Shown here: in pieces, positions 1 to 22,534 of the stretch
How positions within the stretch are numbered: position 1 is the first letter of the stretch
Layout: each line of letters begins with the position of its first letter
Assembly: GCA_029547025.1 (NCBI GenBank)
Contig: JAKPQA010000229.1
Location: 1-32,791 of the forward strand
Source: Armatimonadota bacterium
Lineage (GTDB): Bacteria; Armatimonadota; Zipacnadia; UBA1398; JAKPQA01
Direction of reading: 5' to 3'
Length of the DNA stretch: 32,791 bases
Notes under the pieces: generated by a model
Seen by the model: only the letters and a program-made list of their open reading frames with translations
Told to the model about the DNA's origin: nothing
The model's database searches: none
Translations under genes and position numbers: made by a program

Positions 1-1620
1 ACCGAGGCGCGCGGGGCACTCCGCGATGCGCTGGTGGGGGCTGACGGCGCATGGGCCAGGGCGCTGGTCAACTCGCTGGGCGCGCTGCGCGACGCCGAGT
101 CCTTGCCGGCCATTGCCGGGCTTCTCGCGAGCAACGACGCCGGTCTTCGGGCTGCGGCGGCCCGGGCCCTGGCCTGGACCGGCGATCCGGCGTATGCGGA
201 CCGCCTCCGCCGGGTGGCTGCCGAGGCGACGCCCGAGACCCAGTTTGATGCCACGGACGCGCTGCTGCGCTATGCGGACGCCATGGCGGTTCGCGGGGGC
301 AACTGGGACCGCGCCATGGCGCTGTTCCGCGAGGTGCTCGAGAGCCAGCCCGAGGGAGTGCTGAAGGATGGCGCACTCGTTGGGCTGGGCAGGTTCGGCG
401 ATGAGACCGTAGTGGCTCCCATCCTGGCCACGCTGGCCTCGGCCGAGGATCCTCGAACGCGCGGCGCGTGCATGGTGGCGCTGGAGGCACTCAAGGGCCC
501 CGGGCCAGGCAAGGCCCTTGTCGCAGCCTATCCCGGGCTGACGGGGCAAGCTCAGGTAGCGATGATCGCGATGTTCGGACGCAAGGGCGGGGCAGCCGTG
601 TTGCCAGCCATCCTTGAGGCGGCGAGGAGTGAAGAGGCCGAGCTGCGCCAGACGGCGCTGCGCGCCCTGGGGATCTGTGCCGAACCGGGCGGCGTGCCCG
701 TGCTGGCCCAGGCGGCAGTCTCGGGCCCGGATGAGGAGCGTCCGCTCGCGGTAGACGCGCTGGCGCGGGCCGCCCAGACGCTTCGCGAGCGGGGCCGCAC
801 CGACGATGCGGGCCGCGCGTACGGGGCCCTGTACGAGGCGGCGCCGACGCCGGAGCTGCGTCAGACCGCGCTGGATGGCATCATCGCGTGTCCGGTAGCC
901 GAGGCGTTCGACATTGTGTTCCGCGTGGGCGGCGAGCTGGAACCGTCCGCTCTGTCACCCCCGGCTCAGATCGCGATGCTGGGCGCACTGGCCAAAGTGG
1001 GGCGCAAGGGCGAGGCCATGGAGCTCCTCGACGCGCTCACGAACCAGCCACTCGTGGGCGATGGTGTGGCCCAGCTCGCCGCGTCGCTGGCTCCCCTGGC
1101 CGGGGATATGAATGTCCCACAGCGGCTTGGGTTCGTGACGGACTGGCGTGTGGTCGGGCCCTTCCCCTTCGGCGGGCCGGGGTCAGGGCTCGATGAGGAA
1201 CACGTGGGCGAGCCGAAGGTCGATCTGGCCGCTCGGTACCAGGTCGGCGACGCGGAAGTGGCCTGGCAGGAAGTACACAGCCGAGACCTGGCGGGCATCG
1301 TCAGCCTGCACGACGTGTTCGGTATGGTTGAGCGGCGCGTCTGTTACGCCTACACGAGGATCGATGTGCCTGAGGGCGGAGACGCGATCCTTCGTTGTGG
1401 CAGTGACGACGGGATCAAGGCCTGGGTCAACGGTGAGGTCGTGCTCAATCATGATGTGGATCGGGGGGCCCAGGTCGATCAAGACCAGGCGCCCTGCACG
1501 CTTCGGGCAGGCACGAACGAGCTGTTGGTGAAGATCAGCCAGGGCGGCGGAGGGTGGAACTTCTGCCTGCGGTTCACCACACCCGATGGCCGTCCACTGG
1601 TGTCGAGCCCGGCGAGGTAG
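1..1620 (+). CDS. HEAT-repeat protein with C-terminal beta-sandwich, 5' partial
   Basis: The frame is open from the first base of the window, so the N-terminus is missing; the GTG at 34 is probably only an internal codon. The first ~360 residues are alanine- and leucine-rich paired helices of about 30 residues with HEAT-repeat periodicity, for example around 'ALRALGICAEPGGVPVLAQA'. From about residue 375 (after 'RLGFVTDWRVVGPFPF') it changes to a beta-rich module with 'CGSDDGIKAWVNGEVVLN' and 'LRAGTNELLVKISQGGGGW', the pattern of PA14/galactose-binding-like beta-sandwiches attached to HEAT proteins in planctomycete- and Armatimonadota-type genomes. A surface or periplasmic scaffold that binds carbohydrate or protein is plausible, but no catalytic motif is visible. 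It ends 44 bp before the ATPase gene. The fold call is fairly firm; the function is unknown. Confidence 0.8.
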   Translation, partial: TEARGALRDALVGADGAWARALVNSLGALRDAESLPAIAGLLASNDAGLRAAAARALAWTGDPAYADRLRRVAAEATPETQFDATDALLRYADAMAVRGGNWDRAMALFREVLESQPEGVLKDGALVGLGRFGDETVVAPILATLASAEDPRTRGACMVALEALKGPGPGKALVAAYPGLTGQAQVAMIAMFGRKGGAAVLPAILEAARSEEAELRQTALRALGICAEPGGVPVLAQAAVSGPDEERPLAVDALARAAQTLRERGRTDDAGRAYGALYEAAPTPELRQTALDGIIACPVAEAFDIVFRVGGELEPSALSPPAQIAMLGALAKVGRKGEAMELLDALTNQPLVGDGVAQLAASLAPLAGDMNVPQRLGFVTDWRVVGPFPFGGPGSGLDEEHVGEPKVDLAARYQVGDAEVAWQEVHSRDLAGIVSLHDVFGMVERRVCYAYTRIDVPEGGDAILRCGSDDGIKAWVNGEVVLNHDVDRGAQVDQDQAPCTLRAGTNELLVKISQGGGGWNFCLRFTTPDGRPLVSSPAR

Positions 1621-1664
1621 AGACAGCGCTCGAGTGGCACCGACAGAGGGGAGGAGTCCTGCCG

Positions 1665-3050
1665 ATGTTCCGCCGGCTCCGAATCCAGAACTTCAAGTGC
1701 TGGGCAGACACCGGCGAGATGCGCCTGGCCCCCATCACAGTGCTGTTTGGCCGGAACAGCTCCGGCAAGACGAGCATCATTCGCTTCCTGCTCATGCTGA
1801 AGCAGACGGTGGAATCGCCAGACAGGCTGCGAGTTCTTCACCTCGGCGACTCGGCATCGGCCGCCGACCTTGGCACGTACCATGACTTCGTCCACGGCCA
1901 CGACGCGCGTCGAGACTTGCGGTTCGAGCTCGAGTGGGACCTGCCCTCGCGTCTGGTTCTCAGCGAGGTCGATGAGACAGGCAGCCGGACCTTTGCCGGG
2001 CGGGCGCTTCGCTTCGAGGCCGCCGTCGGCGAAGCGAACGGGGCGGGCGCACTCTCGGTGCGTCGCATGGAGTACGTTCTCGGGCCGGATGAGGCCGATG
2101 GCACGCGAGTGTGGATGTGCGCGGCCGAGGACCGCACCCGCCACGAGCTGGGCAGTTCGCCCCTAGCCATGAGACGCAGGCAGGGCCGGCCGCGGCAGCG
2201 CGTCGCTCCCGTCAAGTTCTATGGCTTCCCCGAGGAGGAGGTGGCGGCCCACCAGGATGCCGGCGGCCTTCTCGATCTGGTTCTCGCACTCGAGCAGCGG
2301 CTAAGGGGCCTCCACTACGTGGGCCCACTCAGGGGGTACCCAAACCGCTCCTATGTGTGGTCCGGGCAGGCACCCCAAGAGGTGGGGGCTCGGGGGGCCG
2401 ATGTTGTCCCGGCCCTACTCGGCGCTCGTGACCGGGCGATCTCGCCGGGCCCACGGAGAAAATCGGTACCATTCCACGAGCTCATCGCGCGCTGGCTCCG
2501 CGAGCTCGGACTCGTACACTCGTTCGAGGTGAAGCCGCTCGCGAGCCATCGCCGCGAGCATGAGGTCCTCGTCCGCGCGTGGGGCGGCGGCCCTGAGGTG
2601 AACCTGGTTGACGTGGGATTCGGCATCTCCCAGGTCCTCCCCGTCATCGTTCAGTGCTTCTACGCGACGCGGGGTTCGCTCGTCATCCTGGAGCAACCTG
2701 AGATCCACCTCCACCCTTCCGCCCAGTCTGGGCTGGCGGACCTGCTGACGGAGGCCATCCATGCGCGGGAAGATGGCGAGGACCGCGGCGTGCAACTCCT
2801 GGTCGAGAGCCACTCGGAACACCTCCTGGAGCGGCTACAGCGGCGGATCGCGGAGGGGAAGCTGAGCAAGGATGATGTGGCGGTCTACTTCTGCGAGCAG
2901 GAAGGGGCGGCCTCGAAGATGACGCCGCTCGAGCTCGACCGGTTCGGCAACATCAGCAACTGGCCCGATGGGTTCTTCGGCGACGAGATGGGGGATGTGC
3001 TTGCCCGGGCGGAGGCCGAGGCGAAACGGCGGCAGGGAGCTCTGAAGTGA
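1665..3050 (+). CDS. AAA/ABC-type ATPase of the DUF3696 family (OLD/AAA15-like)
   Basis: Predicted 461-residue cytoplasmic ATPase. It has Walker A (GRNSSGKT, 29-36), an ABC-like signature (VGFGISQVLP, about 317-326), Walker B (VILEQPEIHLHP, centred on E343) and a switch histidine (VESHSEHLL, H383). The C-terminal stretch with 'YFCEQEG' and 'DRFGNISNWPDGFFGDEM' is typical of DUF3696. The open frame extends upstream to 1554, but the ATG at 1665 is preceded by GAGGGGAGGAG and gives the usual 'MFRRLRIQNFKCW' start. The next gene, a PIN nuclease, overlaps its stop by 4 bp (GTGA), so the two are translationally coupled. ATPases of this family act with separate nuclease partners in anti-phage or plasmid-exclusion systems such as PARIS and Septu. 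A defence role is inferred from this pairing. A transporter role is unlikely because there is no permease and the motifs are of the SMC/OLD type. Confidence 0.88.
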   Translation: MFRRLRIQNFKCWADTGEMRLAPITVLFGRNSSGKTSIIRFLLMLKQTVESPDRLRVLHLGDSASAADLGTYHDFVHGHDARRDLRFELEWDLPSRLVLSEVDETGSRTFAGRALRFEAAVGEANGAGALSVRRMEYVLGPDEADGTRVWMCAAEDRTRHELGSSPLAMRRRQGRPRQRVAPVKFYGFPEEEVAAHQDAGGLLDLVLALEQRLRGLHYVGPLRGYPNRSYVWSGQAPQEVGARGADVVPALLGARDRAISPGPRRKSVPFHELIARWLRELGLVHSFEVKPLASHRREHEVLVRAWGGGPEVNLVDVGFGISQVLPVIVQCFYATRGSLVILEQPEIHLHPSAQSGLADLLTEAIHAREDGEDRGVQLLVESHSEHLLERLQRRIAEGKLSKDDVAVYFCEQEGAASKMTPLELDRFGNISNWPDGFFGDEMGDVLARAEAEAKRRQGALK

Positions 3051-19179: not shown

Positions 19180-20406
19180 ATGGACGACACACTCTCAATG
19201 GATCCCTCTCCCCCGCCGGTGCCCGACCTGCTCCCACCGCCGCGGCCCCAGCGATCGGGTTGCGCCCTTGTGGCTATCGCCGTGATATCCGGCGCCATCG
19301 CGGGGTTGGCCGGGTGCCTCGTTGCCCTGGCCTACTTCATGCCGCAGATCCAGAATCGGGTGGGCTCGCAGGGCGCACCGGCCCTCGCCCCACTACGCCC
19401 CGGCAAGACGGTCACCGCGCAGACCGACCTCACCATCGAGGGAGGCGACTCCGAGGCCATCAAGCGGGCCATCGCCAAGGTCATGCCTGCAGTGGTGCAC
19501 GTGACCCAGGCCATCCCGCGGGATGTGCCCATCCGCACTCCGCAGGGCGGCAGGGACGTGGGCGCCGGGAGCGGGTTCATCATCGATGGCAAGAAGGGGT
19601 TCGTCGTCACCAATGCCCACGTACTTGCCAACCCCGGATTGCCGACCGAGCCCGAGCTCTATGTGAAGCTCGCCGGGCAGGATGACAGCCAACGGATCCT
19701 GGCCCGCCGACTGGCAGTGGACCCGTACCACGACCTGGCGGTGCTCAAGATTGACACCGGGGGCAAAGAGCTGCCTCAGCTCCAGTTTGGCGACTCCGAG
19801 AAGCTGGCCCTGGGTGACTGGGTCATCGCGCTCGGCAGTCCCTTTGGACTGGCCGAGACGGCGACGGTGGGGATCGTCAGCGCCAAACACCGGCGCCTTG
19901 CCATCGCCGATAAGACCTACGACGACCTCCTCCAGACCGACGCAGCCATCAACATGGGCAACAGCGGTGGCCCCCTGGTCAACCTCAATGGCGATGTGGT
20001 TGGGGTCAACAGCGTGATCCAGTCGCCCACGGGCACCAGCGCCGGAGTGGGATTCGCCATTGCATCGAGCCGGGCCCGTACCTACATCGAAGACATGATG
20101 TCGCGGGGTTACCTCGGCGTCGTGATGGGCCCCTACGAGCAGAAGCCGGGCACGGCCGCGGCTCCCGACGGGCACATGTGCGAGGTGCGAGACGTACTCC
20201 CCAAGGGACCGGCCGACGCTGCGGGGATCAAGGTCGGTGACGTGATCCTCCGTATCGACTCCACCGACATTGCGGGCATGGAGGAGGTCGTGAACCTGGT
20301 GGGATCCAAGAAGCCGGGCACCGTGCTGGAGATCGTGGTGTTCCGGCCATCGGAGGACCGCCAGGTGAGGCTGAAAGCGACCGTGGGAGATCGGACCGAG
20401 TACTAA
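19180..20406 (+). CDS. HtrA/DegP-like trypsin-type serine protease with one PDZ domain
   Basis: 408 residues. A proline-rich cytosolic tail is followed by one membrane anchor (about 27-53), so the protease faces the periplasm. The catalytic triad is visible: H147 (VVTNAHVLA), D185 ([11 protein letters not shown]) and S262 ([10 protein letters not shown]). A single PDZ domain follows (YLGVVMG..., '[21 protein letters not shown]', '[17 protein letters not shown]'). It degrades or refolds misfolded envelope proteins, a sensible companion to the porin gene downstream. The start is the ATG at 19180 with AAGGTGG upstream, overlapping the end of ribH; the open frame extending to 19018 is out of frame with ribH and is not used. 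No terminator is evident before the porin promoter. Confidence 0.93.
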
Positions 20407-20435: not shown

Positions 20436-20464
20436 TTGACAGGGTTGACGGGTGCCGCTACAAT
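20436..20464 (+). promoter_or_regulatory. Strong sigma70-type promoter of the porin gene
   Basis: TTGACA (20436-20441), a 17-bp spacer, then TACAAT (20459-20464): a perfect -35 and a one-mismatch -10 at ideal spacing. Transcription would start near 20471 and give an untranslated leader of about 300 nt before the ATG at 20768. Such a good promoter fits an abundant envelope protein. Confidence 0.85.
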
Positions 20465-20470
20465 CTGCCG

Positions 20471-20767
20471 GAATCTTGTTTCGGGACCTTGCAGGGGAAT
20501 CCGCGAACGGGGTTGAACCCCGTGAACGGAGCGGAGGGTTTGGCCCCTGGGGTAGGAGCACAATCTTGCGCAGGAAGGGAGGCGCCAAGAGGAGAGACGT
20601 CGTCCGAAGCGGGTGAAGTACCGCCGCGCCGCAGCCATGAGGAAACACGGCAACTCACGCTGCATGCGACGGGCTCGCCAGCCCAGGCATTGTGTCTCTC
20701 CGCCTGCGATAGCGCCGTGCTTCTACTGTGGGTCACACCGAAGCATATCGTAGGAGGAAAAACGCAA
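20471..20767 (+). ncRNA. Structured 5' leader RNA of the SLH-collagen porin mRNA
   Basis: Domain I (20492-20549) is a three-level coaxial helix: CAGGGG 20492-20497 with CCCCTG 20544-20549, TCCGC 20500-20504 with GCGGA 20531-20535, and CGGGG 20508-20512 with CCCCG 20518-20522 closing a TTGAA loop. Domain II (20591-20701) is closed by GGAGAGAC 20591-20598 with GTCTCTCC 20694-20701. It encloses three hairpins: GCGG/CCGC (20609-20624), GCAGC-TGAG/CTCA-GCTGC (20631-20663) and GGGCT/AGCCC (20671-20684). The ribosome binding site (AGGAGG, about 20752-20757) follows directly. I recognise no known riboswitch class. It may be a cis-regulator of porin synthesis, as long leaders are in some S-layer genes, or may also be released as a small RNA. 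Confidence 0.6.
20637..20753 (+). CDS. Possible 38-codon leader ORF ending at the porin ribosome binding site
   Basis: ATG at 20637 opens a 38-residue frame with nine Arg, four Cys (two in 'CFYCG') and three His, closed by a TAG whose bases begin the porin Shine-Dalgarno (TAGGAGG). It overlaps leader domain II, so its translation would disrupt that RNA fold. No Shine-Dalgarno precedes it and its composition could be chance in GC-rich DNA, so this is a weak call. Confidence 0.2.
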
Positions 20768-22468
20768 ATGGGACGCAAGCTCGCATGTGTTCTGGGCTTG
20801 GCGCTCGTGCTCATGGCCGGTGCCGCGGCATGGGCCGATGCGGGCGCAAAGGATACGGTAGCTCCGCCCGCCAAGGCTGGCATGCCGGCCGACGTGGCCT
20901 TCGACCACTGGGCCTATGACGCAGTGGCCGACATGTACGACGCTGGGCTGCTTGAGGGCTACCCCGACGGGACCTTCAAGGGCAATAACAGCCTGACTCG
21001 GTACGAGTTCGCGATGGCCCTGGCGCGCACGCTGTGGACCATCAAGACCAACCCCGAGTACAAGGGCCCCAAGGGCGACAAGGGCGATACCGGCGCTGCC
21101 GGTCCCGCTGGCCCCAAGGGTGATACTGGCCCAGCCGGTCCCGCGGGTCCTGCTGGCCCCAAGGGCGACAAGGGCGCAACGGGCCCTGCCGGCCCCAAAG
21201 GCGAGAAGGGTGCGAAGGGCGACAAGGGCGATCGTGGCCCTGGCCCGACGCCCGCTGAGGTCGACGAGGGTGTCAAGAGGGTCTTCGGCGACATGGGTCT
21301 CGTGAACCAGGACCAGCTCAACGGGGCCATCAAGAAGCTGAAGGACGAGCTCACCCCGCAGTTTGAGGACCTCTCTGATCGCATCGACGACCTCGCCGAT
21401 GAGATCGATGGCCTCAAGGTGCGCGTCCAGGCCCTGGAGGAGAAGCCGGATACGGTTAGCGGCTCGATTTCCTGGGATGCTGGGACGGCTTGGCCGACCT
21501 TCAACACCAACGTGGATTCGGCGCGCAACGGTATCTTCAACTCGCTCGAGACCGTGGTGCAGATCCACAAGAAGATCAGCTCCAACTCGAGTGCGACCGT
21601 GGTCCTGTTCGAGAACCTTGGCAACGGCCTGGGTGTCGCGCCCCGTTCGTTCGCCATGGCCGACGAGGCCTACTTGACCTTCCGTGACACCGATATCTTC
21701 GACATCGACTCCGACATCGTGATCGGTCGCCAGTATGTGGGTTATGGCTATGGCCTGACCTTCAACAACAACTCCTGGTCGATCGATGGCGTGCGTCTGA
21801 TCAACCGCGACTGGGACTTCGAGACCGAGCTGTTCGTCGGGTCGAAGTTCGGTGACATCGTCACCGTCCTGCGCGTGGCCGATGACATCGGTGATCATGT
21901 CAATGCCGGTATCACCTACGTGGCCAATCCGATTGGTGGCACCTTCCTGACGCCGCGCTACGGCTTGGACGTGACGGTCCTGGCTGGAGAGCACACGATC
22001 TACGGCGAGGTCGCCTGGGATAGCAACATCTCCTGGCTGGTCCCGTCGGCAGCCTTGTTGGATGTCCAGGTCCTGTATGACGGGGACTGGGACGTTCACT
22101 TGGGCGGATCGTATGTCCGCGCCGCGTATGCCGCCGCTGATCCTGCGACCCTGCTGACCCCGTACACCCGTGCGTGGGGCAACGAGCCGTTTGCTGGGTT
22201 CTTCTATCAGCGCCTGATGACCCCGCTGGCTTTCGGCAAGGGCGAGGCGACGGCCTACCTGAAGGCGACCTTCCATGACGACAGCCGCGACTGGCGGTTC
22301 GCGTACATCCAGAGCAGCATCAAGGGCAACTCCATGGCTTCGGTCGGGACCGATATCCCCATCGGCGGGGACTTCGATCTCAACGTCGACGTGGCGCAGA
22401 CGCTGTTCGGCTGGGTGAACAACACCCCGCGTACGCTGGTCCGCATGGGTGTGAGCGTGCCCTTCTAG
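20768..22468 (+). CDS. SLH-domain outer-membrane porin with a collagen-like stalk
   Basis: 566 residues in a clear modular order. A signal peptide ([21 protein letters not shown]) is followed by one SLH domain (about 40-88, '[45 protein letters not shown]') that binds the cell wall polymer. Twenty uninterrupted Gly-X-Y triplets come next (G100-159, rich in GPK, GDK, GPA). A heptad-type coiled coil ('[25 protein letters not shown]', about 195-225) leads into a beta-rich barrel of roughly 340 residues ending in 'MGVSVPF', with the terminal Phe read by the BAM complex. SLH-coiled coil-barrel porins (OmpM, SlpA type) tie the outer membrane to peptidoglycan as trimers; collagen helices are also trimers. 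AGGAGG lies upstream of the ATG. The open frame reaching 20489 is leader, not protein. Confidence 0.9.
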
Positions 22469-22496: not shown

Positions 22497-22534
22497 ACGG
22501 ACGGCTCGGCTTCGGCCGGGCCGTCCGTTTGTGT
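22497..22534 (+). terminator. Rho-independent terminator of the porin gene
   Basis: 14-bp stem ACGGACGGCTCGGC (22497-22510) with its complement (22515-22528) containing one wobble, a TTCG tetraloop, then TTTGTGT. It lies 28 bp after the porin stop. Confidence 0.85.

Follow-up and report, generated by a model that had tools for sequence, protein, structure and literature searches.

The window analyzed here is a stretch of 32,791 nucleotides from a bacterium of the phylum Armatimonadota. A 566-amino-acid open reading frame on its forward strand (20768..22468, +) was identified from the ORF list, Pfam domain analysis and full-length homologues as a gene for a protein with an SLH domain, a collagen-like tract, a coiled coil and a porin barrel. 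The start codon is preceded by a good ribosome-binding site, AGGAGG (20752-20757, +), and a sigma-70-type promoter, TTGACA-17-TACAAT (20436..20464, +; 11/12 match), lies further upstream; one such promoter was seen, compared with 0.3 expected in shuffled sequences. Promoter and porin start are separated by a leader of approximately 300 nt (20465-20767, +), and a search against Rfam returned no match anywhere in the window, this leader included. Directly after the stop codon, a GC-rich, terminator-like hairpin with a short T-run (22499..22526, +) was read from the sequence; the scan that reported the promoter did not flag it. The gene directly upstream of the porin encodes an HtrA/DegP-like protease with a PDZ domain (19201-20406, +) and is itself preceded by a lumazine synthase gene. 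Next to other porins of the window's order no such HtrA/DegP gene arrangement was seen, and synteny within the order extended to the porin and one other gene only. The window also encodes an AAA_15/AAA_21 ATPase with DUF3696 (1554-3050, +), a possible defense-type ATPase.

The porin begins with a signal peptide (residues ~1 to 24; 20768..20839, +), which was read directly and has the same position in relatives. It is followed by a single SLH domain (residues 47 to 82; 20906..21013, +; PF00395, E = 8.5e-10, over the cut-off), the expected peptidoglycan anchor, and by a collagen-like tract of 20 Gly-X-Y triplets (residues 100 to 159; 21065..21244, +; PF01391, E = 2e-8, also over the cut-off). 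An AlphaFold2 model built with 26 homologues placed a coiled-coil helix at residues 181 to 225 (21308..21442, +) and the start of an outer-membrane beta-barrel at residue 230. Near the end of the helix, alignment of the homologues revealed an RhxxhE trimer motif, RVQALE (residues 219 to 224; 21422..21439, +), of which R219 and E224 are invariant across all 26. The barrel (21455..22465, +), which has 18 predicted strands and a C-terminal Phe, was modelled better alone (pLDDT 82, pTM 0.79). A preliminary description of this DNA had proposed both the 20 perfect triplets and the order of SLH domain, collagen, coiled coil and barrel; both were confirmed, the former in the open reading frame and the latter by Pfam, the model and the homologues.

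The barrel fold matched Occ, AlgE, MOMP and LamB-type porins with Z scores of about 20 to 24, the barrel modelled alone scoring about 23 against Occ, AlgE and MOMP. Against OmpM1, the barrel gave a VIA Z of 17.9 (rmsd 6.3, 276 aligned) and the full model a Z of 18.6, and a Foldseek comparison of the model with 8bym gave an E value of 2e-10. With phmmer, homology of the SLH region was detected to OmpM1 (8bym; residues 5 to 89, E = 1e-14) and to 7zgx. The N-terminal SLH domain, the predicted coiled-coil joint and the modelled C-terminal porin-fold barrel give it the sequence features and fold of a porin of the OmpM/SlpA type. It fell below the cut-off for the iron-uptake porin NF033921 (por_somb; 41 bits versus 100), the match being confined to the SLH region.

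The collagen-like tract

Residues 100 to 159 comprise exactly 20 uninterrupted Gly-X-Y triplets (20/20), of which the Pfam Collagen match spans residues 100 to 157. With Gly making up 12% of the protein, such a run has a chance of ~4e-19 per start position. The underlying DNA shows only weak tandem repetition (45-bp unit, 2.9 copies, 71% match), and Gly, Pro and Ala codons are mixed across the tract. These properties led us to reject both chance and DNA slippage as its source. In the 6.3-Mb genome, the window tract is the only Collagen match over the cut-off, and one other, weaker SLH match is present. The uninterrupted Gly-X-Y repeat by which collagen-like proteins are recognized is present in this protein.

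The AlphaFold2 monomer had low confidence across the tract (block means about 39 to 49), as would be expected if the tract were a flexible or extended linker that forms no triple helix. An extended chain has a similar rise per residue, and the TamB and stalk-swap results described below would, taken alone, be compatible with such a linker. Gly is, however, retained at every third position. In 69 collagen-bearing proteins we counted 11 interruptions in 1016 triplets (about 1%), and across the 26 aligned homologues, which keep the order of SLH domain, Gly-X-Y tract, coiled coil and barrel, many triplets have an invariant Gly, in contrast to the variable X and Y residues. Pro occupies 58% of X positions in the sampled tracts, the window tract has seven KGD/KGE motifs, and the trimer motif follows it. 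Since the length matching reported below also implies a stiff element, we consider the linker improbable and favor a collagen triple helix.

Many described bacterial collagens are displayed on the surface, and in Bucl8 the collagen lies outside a trimeric outer-membrane channel (PMC7682875); the tract could by analogy be a surface adhesin. In the window protein, however, it is located between the SLH domain and the barrel, on the N-terminal side, which in OmpM1 and SlpA is the periplasmic side (PMC10628300, PMC9388160), and an adhesin would predict neither length matching nor covariation with TamB. The protein also missed the NCBIfam equivalog cut-offs for SclB (48.6 bits versus 325) and Lcl (45.2 versus 500); by these curated cut-offs it is not an Scl/Lcl adhesin, and the repeat is all that it shares with them. 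We regard a role as an adhesin as very improbable and retain the periplasmic location.

Predicted lengths were calculated for straight rods, with a rise of 0.286 nm per residue for collagen and 0.149 nm for helix. The tract then measures ~17 nm (60 x 0.286), the length given in the preliminary description; the whole stalk is longer, about 27 to 31 nm predicted.

Distribution in Armatimonadota and other diderms

A profile of the whole protein matched 43 of the 46 genomes of the class (Armatimonadota, Ca. Zipacnadia/WS1), and a sample of 66 full-length SLH proteins of this class contained 65 with the tract; the lone exception carries extra SLH repeats at the stalk position. Class proteins typically have 11 to 18 triplets, the window protein has 20, and those of family f3 have 33 to 44 or more. 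At least six perfect triplets were present in 24 of the 32 Armatimonadota families sampled, and other families of the phylum have a coiled coil at the position of the collagen. In relatives, either the tract lies between the SLH domain and the barrel-proximal coiled coil, as the preliminary description had it for this gene, or a coiled coil stands there instead. With the tract this widespread, a one-off insertion was rejected. The sampled genomes include MAGs, which are possibly incomplete or contaminated.

The preliminary description had suggested looking for the same order in other diderm genomes. The tract was absent from named outgroup loci of Cyanobacteria, Atribacterota, Negativicutes and Capsulimonas-like Armatimonadota, and in profile searches of 244 Cyanobacteria, 250 Negativicutes-class and 50 Atribacterota genomes, none of the matches listed entered the collagen part. 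Those listed outside Armatimonadota ended at model position 65 or earlier. These searches covered the three groups named.

One member of family f38 (G248) has 15 SLH matches and a related genus 11, the usual number in the phylum being 1 to 4. A contig of another genome (G032:C151) carries several broken SLH-collagen-porin fragments in tandem, resembling a gene array in decay or an assembly with frameshifts.

Stalk length in paralogues and its relation to TamB

A stalk that bridges a gap of fixed width would be expected to be equally long in every SLH-porin of one cell. The window's own genome holds one SLH-porin, and matching was measured in its relatives, with stalk length counted from TRYEFA in the SLH domain up to where the barrel's first strand starts. 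Within the window's order, stalks in relatives were 143/145 and 143/145/145/143 residues. A larger comparison was made between two paralogue groups, A and B, whose split predates families f6 to f9 in the tree and whose barrels are 32 to 41% identical. In 22 genomes, with stalks ranging from 107 to 123 residues between genomes, A and B stalk lengths were correlated with an r of 0.94, and the mean difference within a genome was 1.09 residues. An alignment-free repeat of the comparison again gave an r of 0.94. The correlation was present inside f6, f7 and f8 (r = 0.91, 0.99 and 0.96, respectively). As controls, barrel length was weakly correlated between the groups (r = 0.49), and the correlation for the coiled coil was not significant (r = 0.33).

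Lengths carry phylogenetic signal, and we considered whether the matching was a by-product of shared ancestry. Permutation of partners within families gave a mean difference of 3.76 residues, with none of 200,000 permutations as small as 1.09 (P = 5e-6); independent contrasts retained the correlation (r = 0.885, P = 4e-8); and under independent Brownian evolution the observed r was not reached in 20,000 simulations (P = 5e-5). Shared ancestry is rejected for the paralogues by these analyses. There was also no sign of gene conversion, which was rejected, since SLH domains of one genome were no more alike (0.714) than those of different genomes (0.730).

Triplet number as the matched quantity was likewise rejected: it was correlated less strongly (r = 0.55) than total stalk length (r = 0.93 to 0.94). 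The distance from the SLH domain to the end of the collagen gave an r of 0.95 and the coiled coil no significant correlation, indicating that the collagen together with a short linker carries the matched variation. Individual genomes combine unequal triplet numbers with equal stalks, such as 15 and 12 triplets at 115/115 residues (G018) and 14 and 7 at 118/118 (G006).

Equal stalks would also arise if the paralogues assembled into heterotrimers that need collagen and coiled coil in register, rather than from a common gap, and both groups do keep the coiled coil and the Gly-X-Y tract. Triplet numbers are, however, only loosely matched where total lengths are equal, and the interruptions are placed differently, which would break the register. 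The divergence of the barrels also argues against mixed trimers, which in addition predict neither the TamB correlation nor the family f24 swap described below. Heterotrimers are thus unlikely, and we prefer a common gap. The length matching shows co-adaptation, not control of the spacing by the stalk.

Matching was also observed among 50 coiled-coil-only porins of 10 cyanobacterial genomes, a set that includes recent duplicates and was compared without phylogenetic correction: the mean within-genome difference was 0.53, compared with 1.96 expected, and was reached in 0 of 5000 permutations. SLH-to-barrel spacing was near-identical per genome in G291, G294 to G296 and G298, in which some stalks are only ~40% identical; ten porins of G291 and six of G295 have a spacing of exactly 68.

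TamB runs from the inner to the outer membrane. As it spans both membranes, its length should follow the depth of the periplasm. Measured from the transmembrane helix to the end, TamB was 1722 to 1879 residues long in 16 class genomes and 2104 in one more. Two genomes of family f3 had TamB proteins of 4261 and 4291 residues and a third at least 2875, the gene being cut by the contig end. These giant TamB-like proteins (G014:C7, G042:C444, G003:C78), of ~4,260 to 4,290 residues, are about 2.4 times the class norm of ~1,750. The f3 stalks are 207 to 244 residues long, ~49 to 59 nm predicted. Judged from the sequences, the giant TamB and the long stalks suggest an unusually deep periplasm in this family.

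In 67 genomes across the phylum, for which TamB lengths were open-frame lengths, predicted stalk length in nm was correlated with TamB length with a rho of 0.75. For 29 family means, used in place of a full phylogenetic model, rho was 0.70 (P = 2e-5), and 0.67 without f3. TamB followed stalk length in nm (rho = 0.69) better than residue count (rho = 0.45; family means). Poor fits were G049 (18.9 nm, TamB 2366), G058 (21.6 nm, TamB 1449) and the G268 pair (115/109 residues). An attempt to estimate the collagen rise from the TamB regression was dropped, as the interval was useless: the ratio of Gly-X-Y to helical residues was 1.90, compared with 1.92 expected, but its bootstrap interval is so wide that the ratio by itself is no proof.

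General inflation of gene length could produce such a trend, and TamB length was indeed correlated with genome size (rho = 0.49). The partial rho of stalk and TamB given genome size was nevertheless 0.66; barrel length did not track TamB (rho = -0.24), and f3 barrels are no longer than others. We therefore doubt that inflation, or ancestry in the paralogues, explains the two patterns. The data show tether length to be matched to a quantity common to the whole cell, which scales with TamB as well and of which tether length may be either cause or consequence.

Family f24 provides a natural swap: the stalk of one genome is 152 residues long and includes 16 triplets (29.2 nm, TamB 2807), whereas that of another is helical, lacks collagen and is 208 residues long (31.0 nm, TamB 2910). 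The ends of the two stalks are clearly homologous (HEARIEELERIK and HEARLAALERIK). As the pair is similar in predicted nm with and without collagen, collagen and coiled coil look interchangeable at about constant length.

Proposed role of the stalk and comparison with known systems

We propose that the gene probably encodes a homotrimeric porin of the OmpM/SlpA type in which collagen forms an adjustable segment of a stalk fitted to the cell-wide gap between outer membrane and peptidoglycan. Three chains would zip into the coiled coil beside the barrel, with the RhxxhE motif nucleating the trimer, and the collagen triple helix would then zip from the coiled coil toward the SLH end to form a rod of about 27 to 31 nm. 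The SLH domain at the N terminus would hold peptidoglycan, and the barrel would sit in the outer membrane. All SLH-porins of a cell would have to span one gap; otherwise the shorter would take all the load and the longer would tilt. Across Armatimonadota, the collagen and short linker vary while the coiled coil keeps a near-constant length within a lineage, so that gain or loss of triplets would adjust the total reach. Tether length may help to set the gap rather than only follow it.

The preliminary description had read the tract as a spacer that sets or braces this distance. The predictions tested (paralogue matching, the TamB trend and the f24 swap) held and support the spacer, which may either set the gap or be fitted to it. 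We think it reasonably likely, with somewhat less assurance than for the gene itself, that every diderm cell tethered by SLH-porins gives all of them the same stalk length, making the gap readable from the genome, and that Armatimonadota tune it by triplet counting, the stalks of family f3 having reached roughly 50 nm or more and TamB having grown along with them. The results suggest that collagen serves bacteria as a ruler of adjustable length for the space under the outer membrane.

To our knowledge, it is mainly for Lpp of E. coli that control of the spacing between outer membrane and wall is understood in detail. The Armatimonadota add tethers whose predicted lengths range in nature from about 15 to nearly 60 nm and whose stalks co-adapt with TamB, the lipid bridge, and with other tethers. 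They would give bacterial collagen, otherwise mostly described as a surface adhesin, a periplasmic structural role. They would also offer a sequence-based prediction of envelope geometry in uncultured bacteria. A literature search, in which few subscription papers were covered, returned no report joining SLH, collagen and a porin or tether, and the description of Ca. Zipacnadia (PMC10290634) mentions neither collagen, SLH nor an outer membrane. Both the TamB trend and the rule of matched lengths seem to be new, and they hold the greater interest.

Both OmpM1 (PMC10628300) and SlpA (PMC9388160) form trimers whose SLH stalk lies in the periplasm. OmpM1 of Veillonella parvula (8BYM; PMC10628300) resembles the window protein in its signal peptide, single SLH domain, coiled coil and porin barrel. 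Unlike the window protein, with 20 triplets, a stalk of about 27 to 31 nm and 18 predicted strands, it lacks collagen, and its coiled-coil stalk is short and its barrel 16-stranded. SlpA of Deinococcus radiodurans (PMC9388160) shares the SLH domain, long stalk and barrel, and the spacing of R and E in RVQALE is that of its R227-E232 salt bridge (R-x4-E). Its 28-nm stalk matches a measured distance between outer membrane and peptidoglycan of 30 +/- 3 nm. In contrast to the window protein, the stalk of SlpA is all coiled coil and its barrel has 30 strands; the word collagen does not occur in PMC9388160. Bucl8 of Burkholderia (PMC7682875) is the closest earlier case of collagen on an outer-membrane trimer: a trimeric channel is likewise fused to a collagen-like tract, the triple helix of which was demonstrated by CD. 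That collagen is, however, extracellular and follows the channel, a TolC-type efflux protein that has no SLH domain and is not a wall tether. Lpp of E. coli (PMC8824477) is an unrelated, covalently linked coiled-coil lipoprotein with no pore and no collagen, but it offers a functional likeness, since the length of this trimeric rod constrains how far apart outer membrane and peptidoglycan lie: when Lpp is lengthened (Lpp+21), this spacing is altered, and OmpA and Pal become essential.
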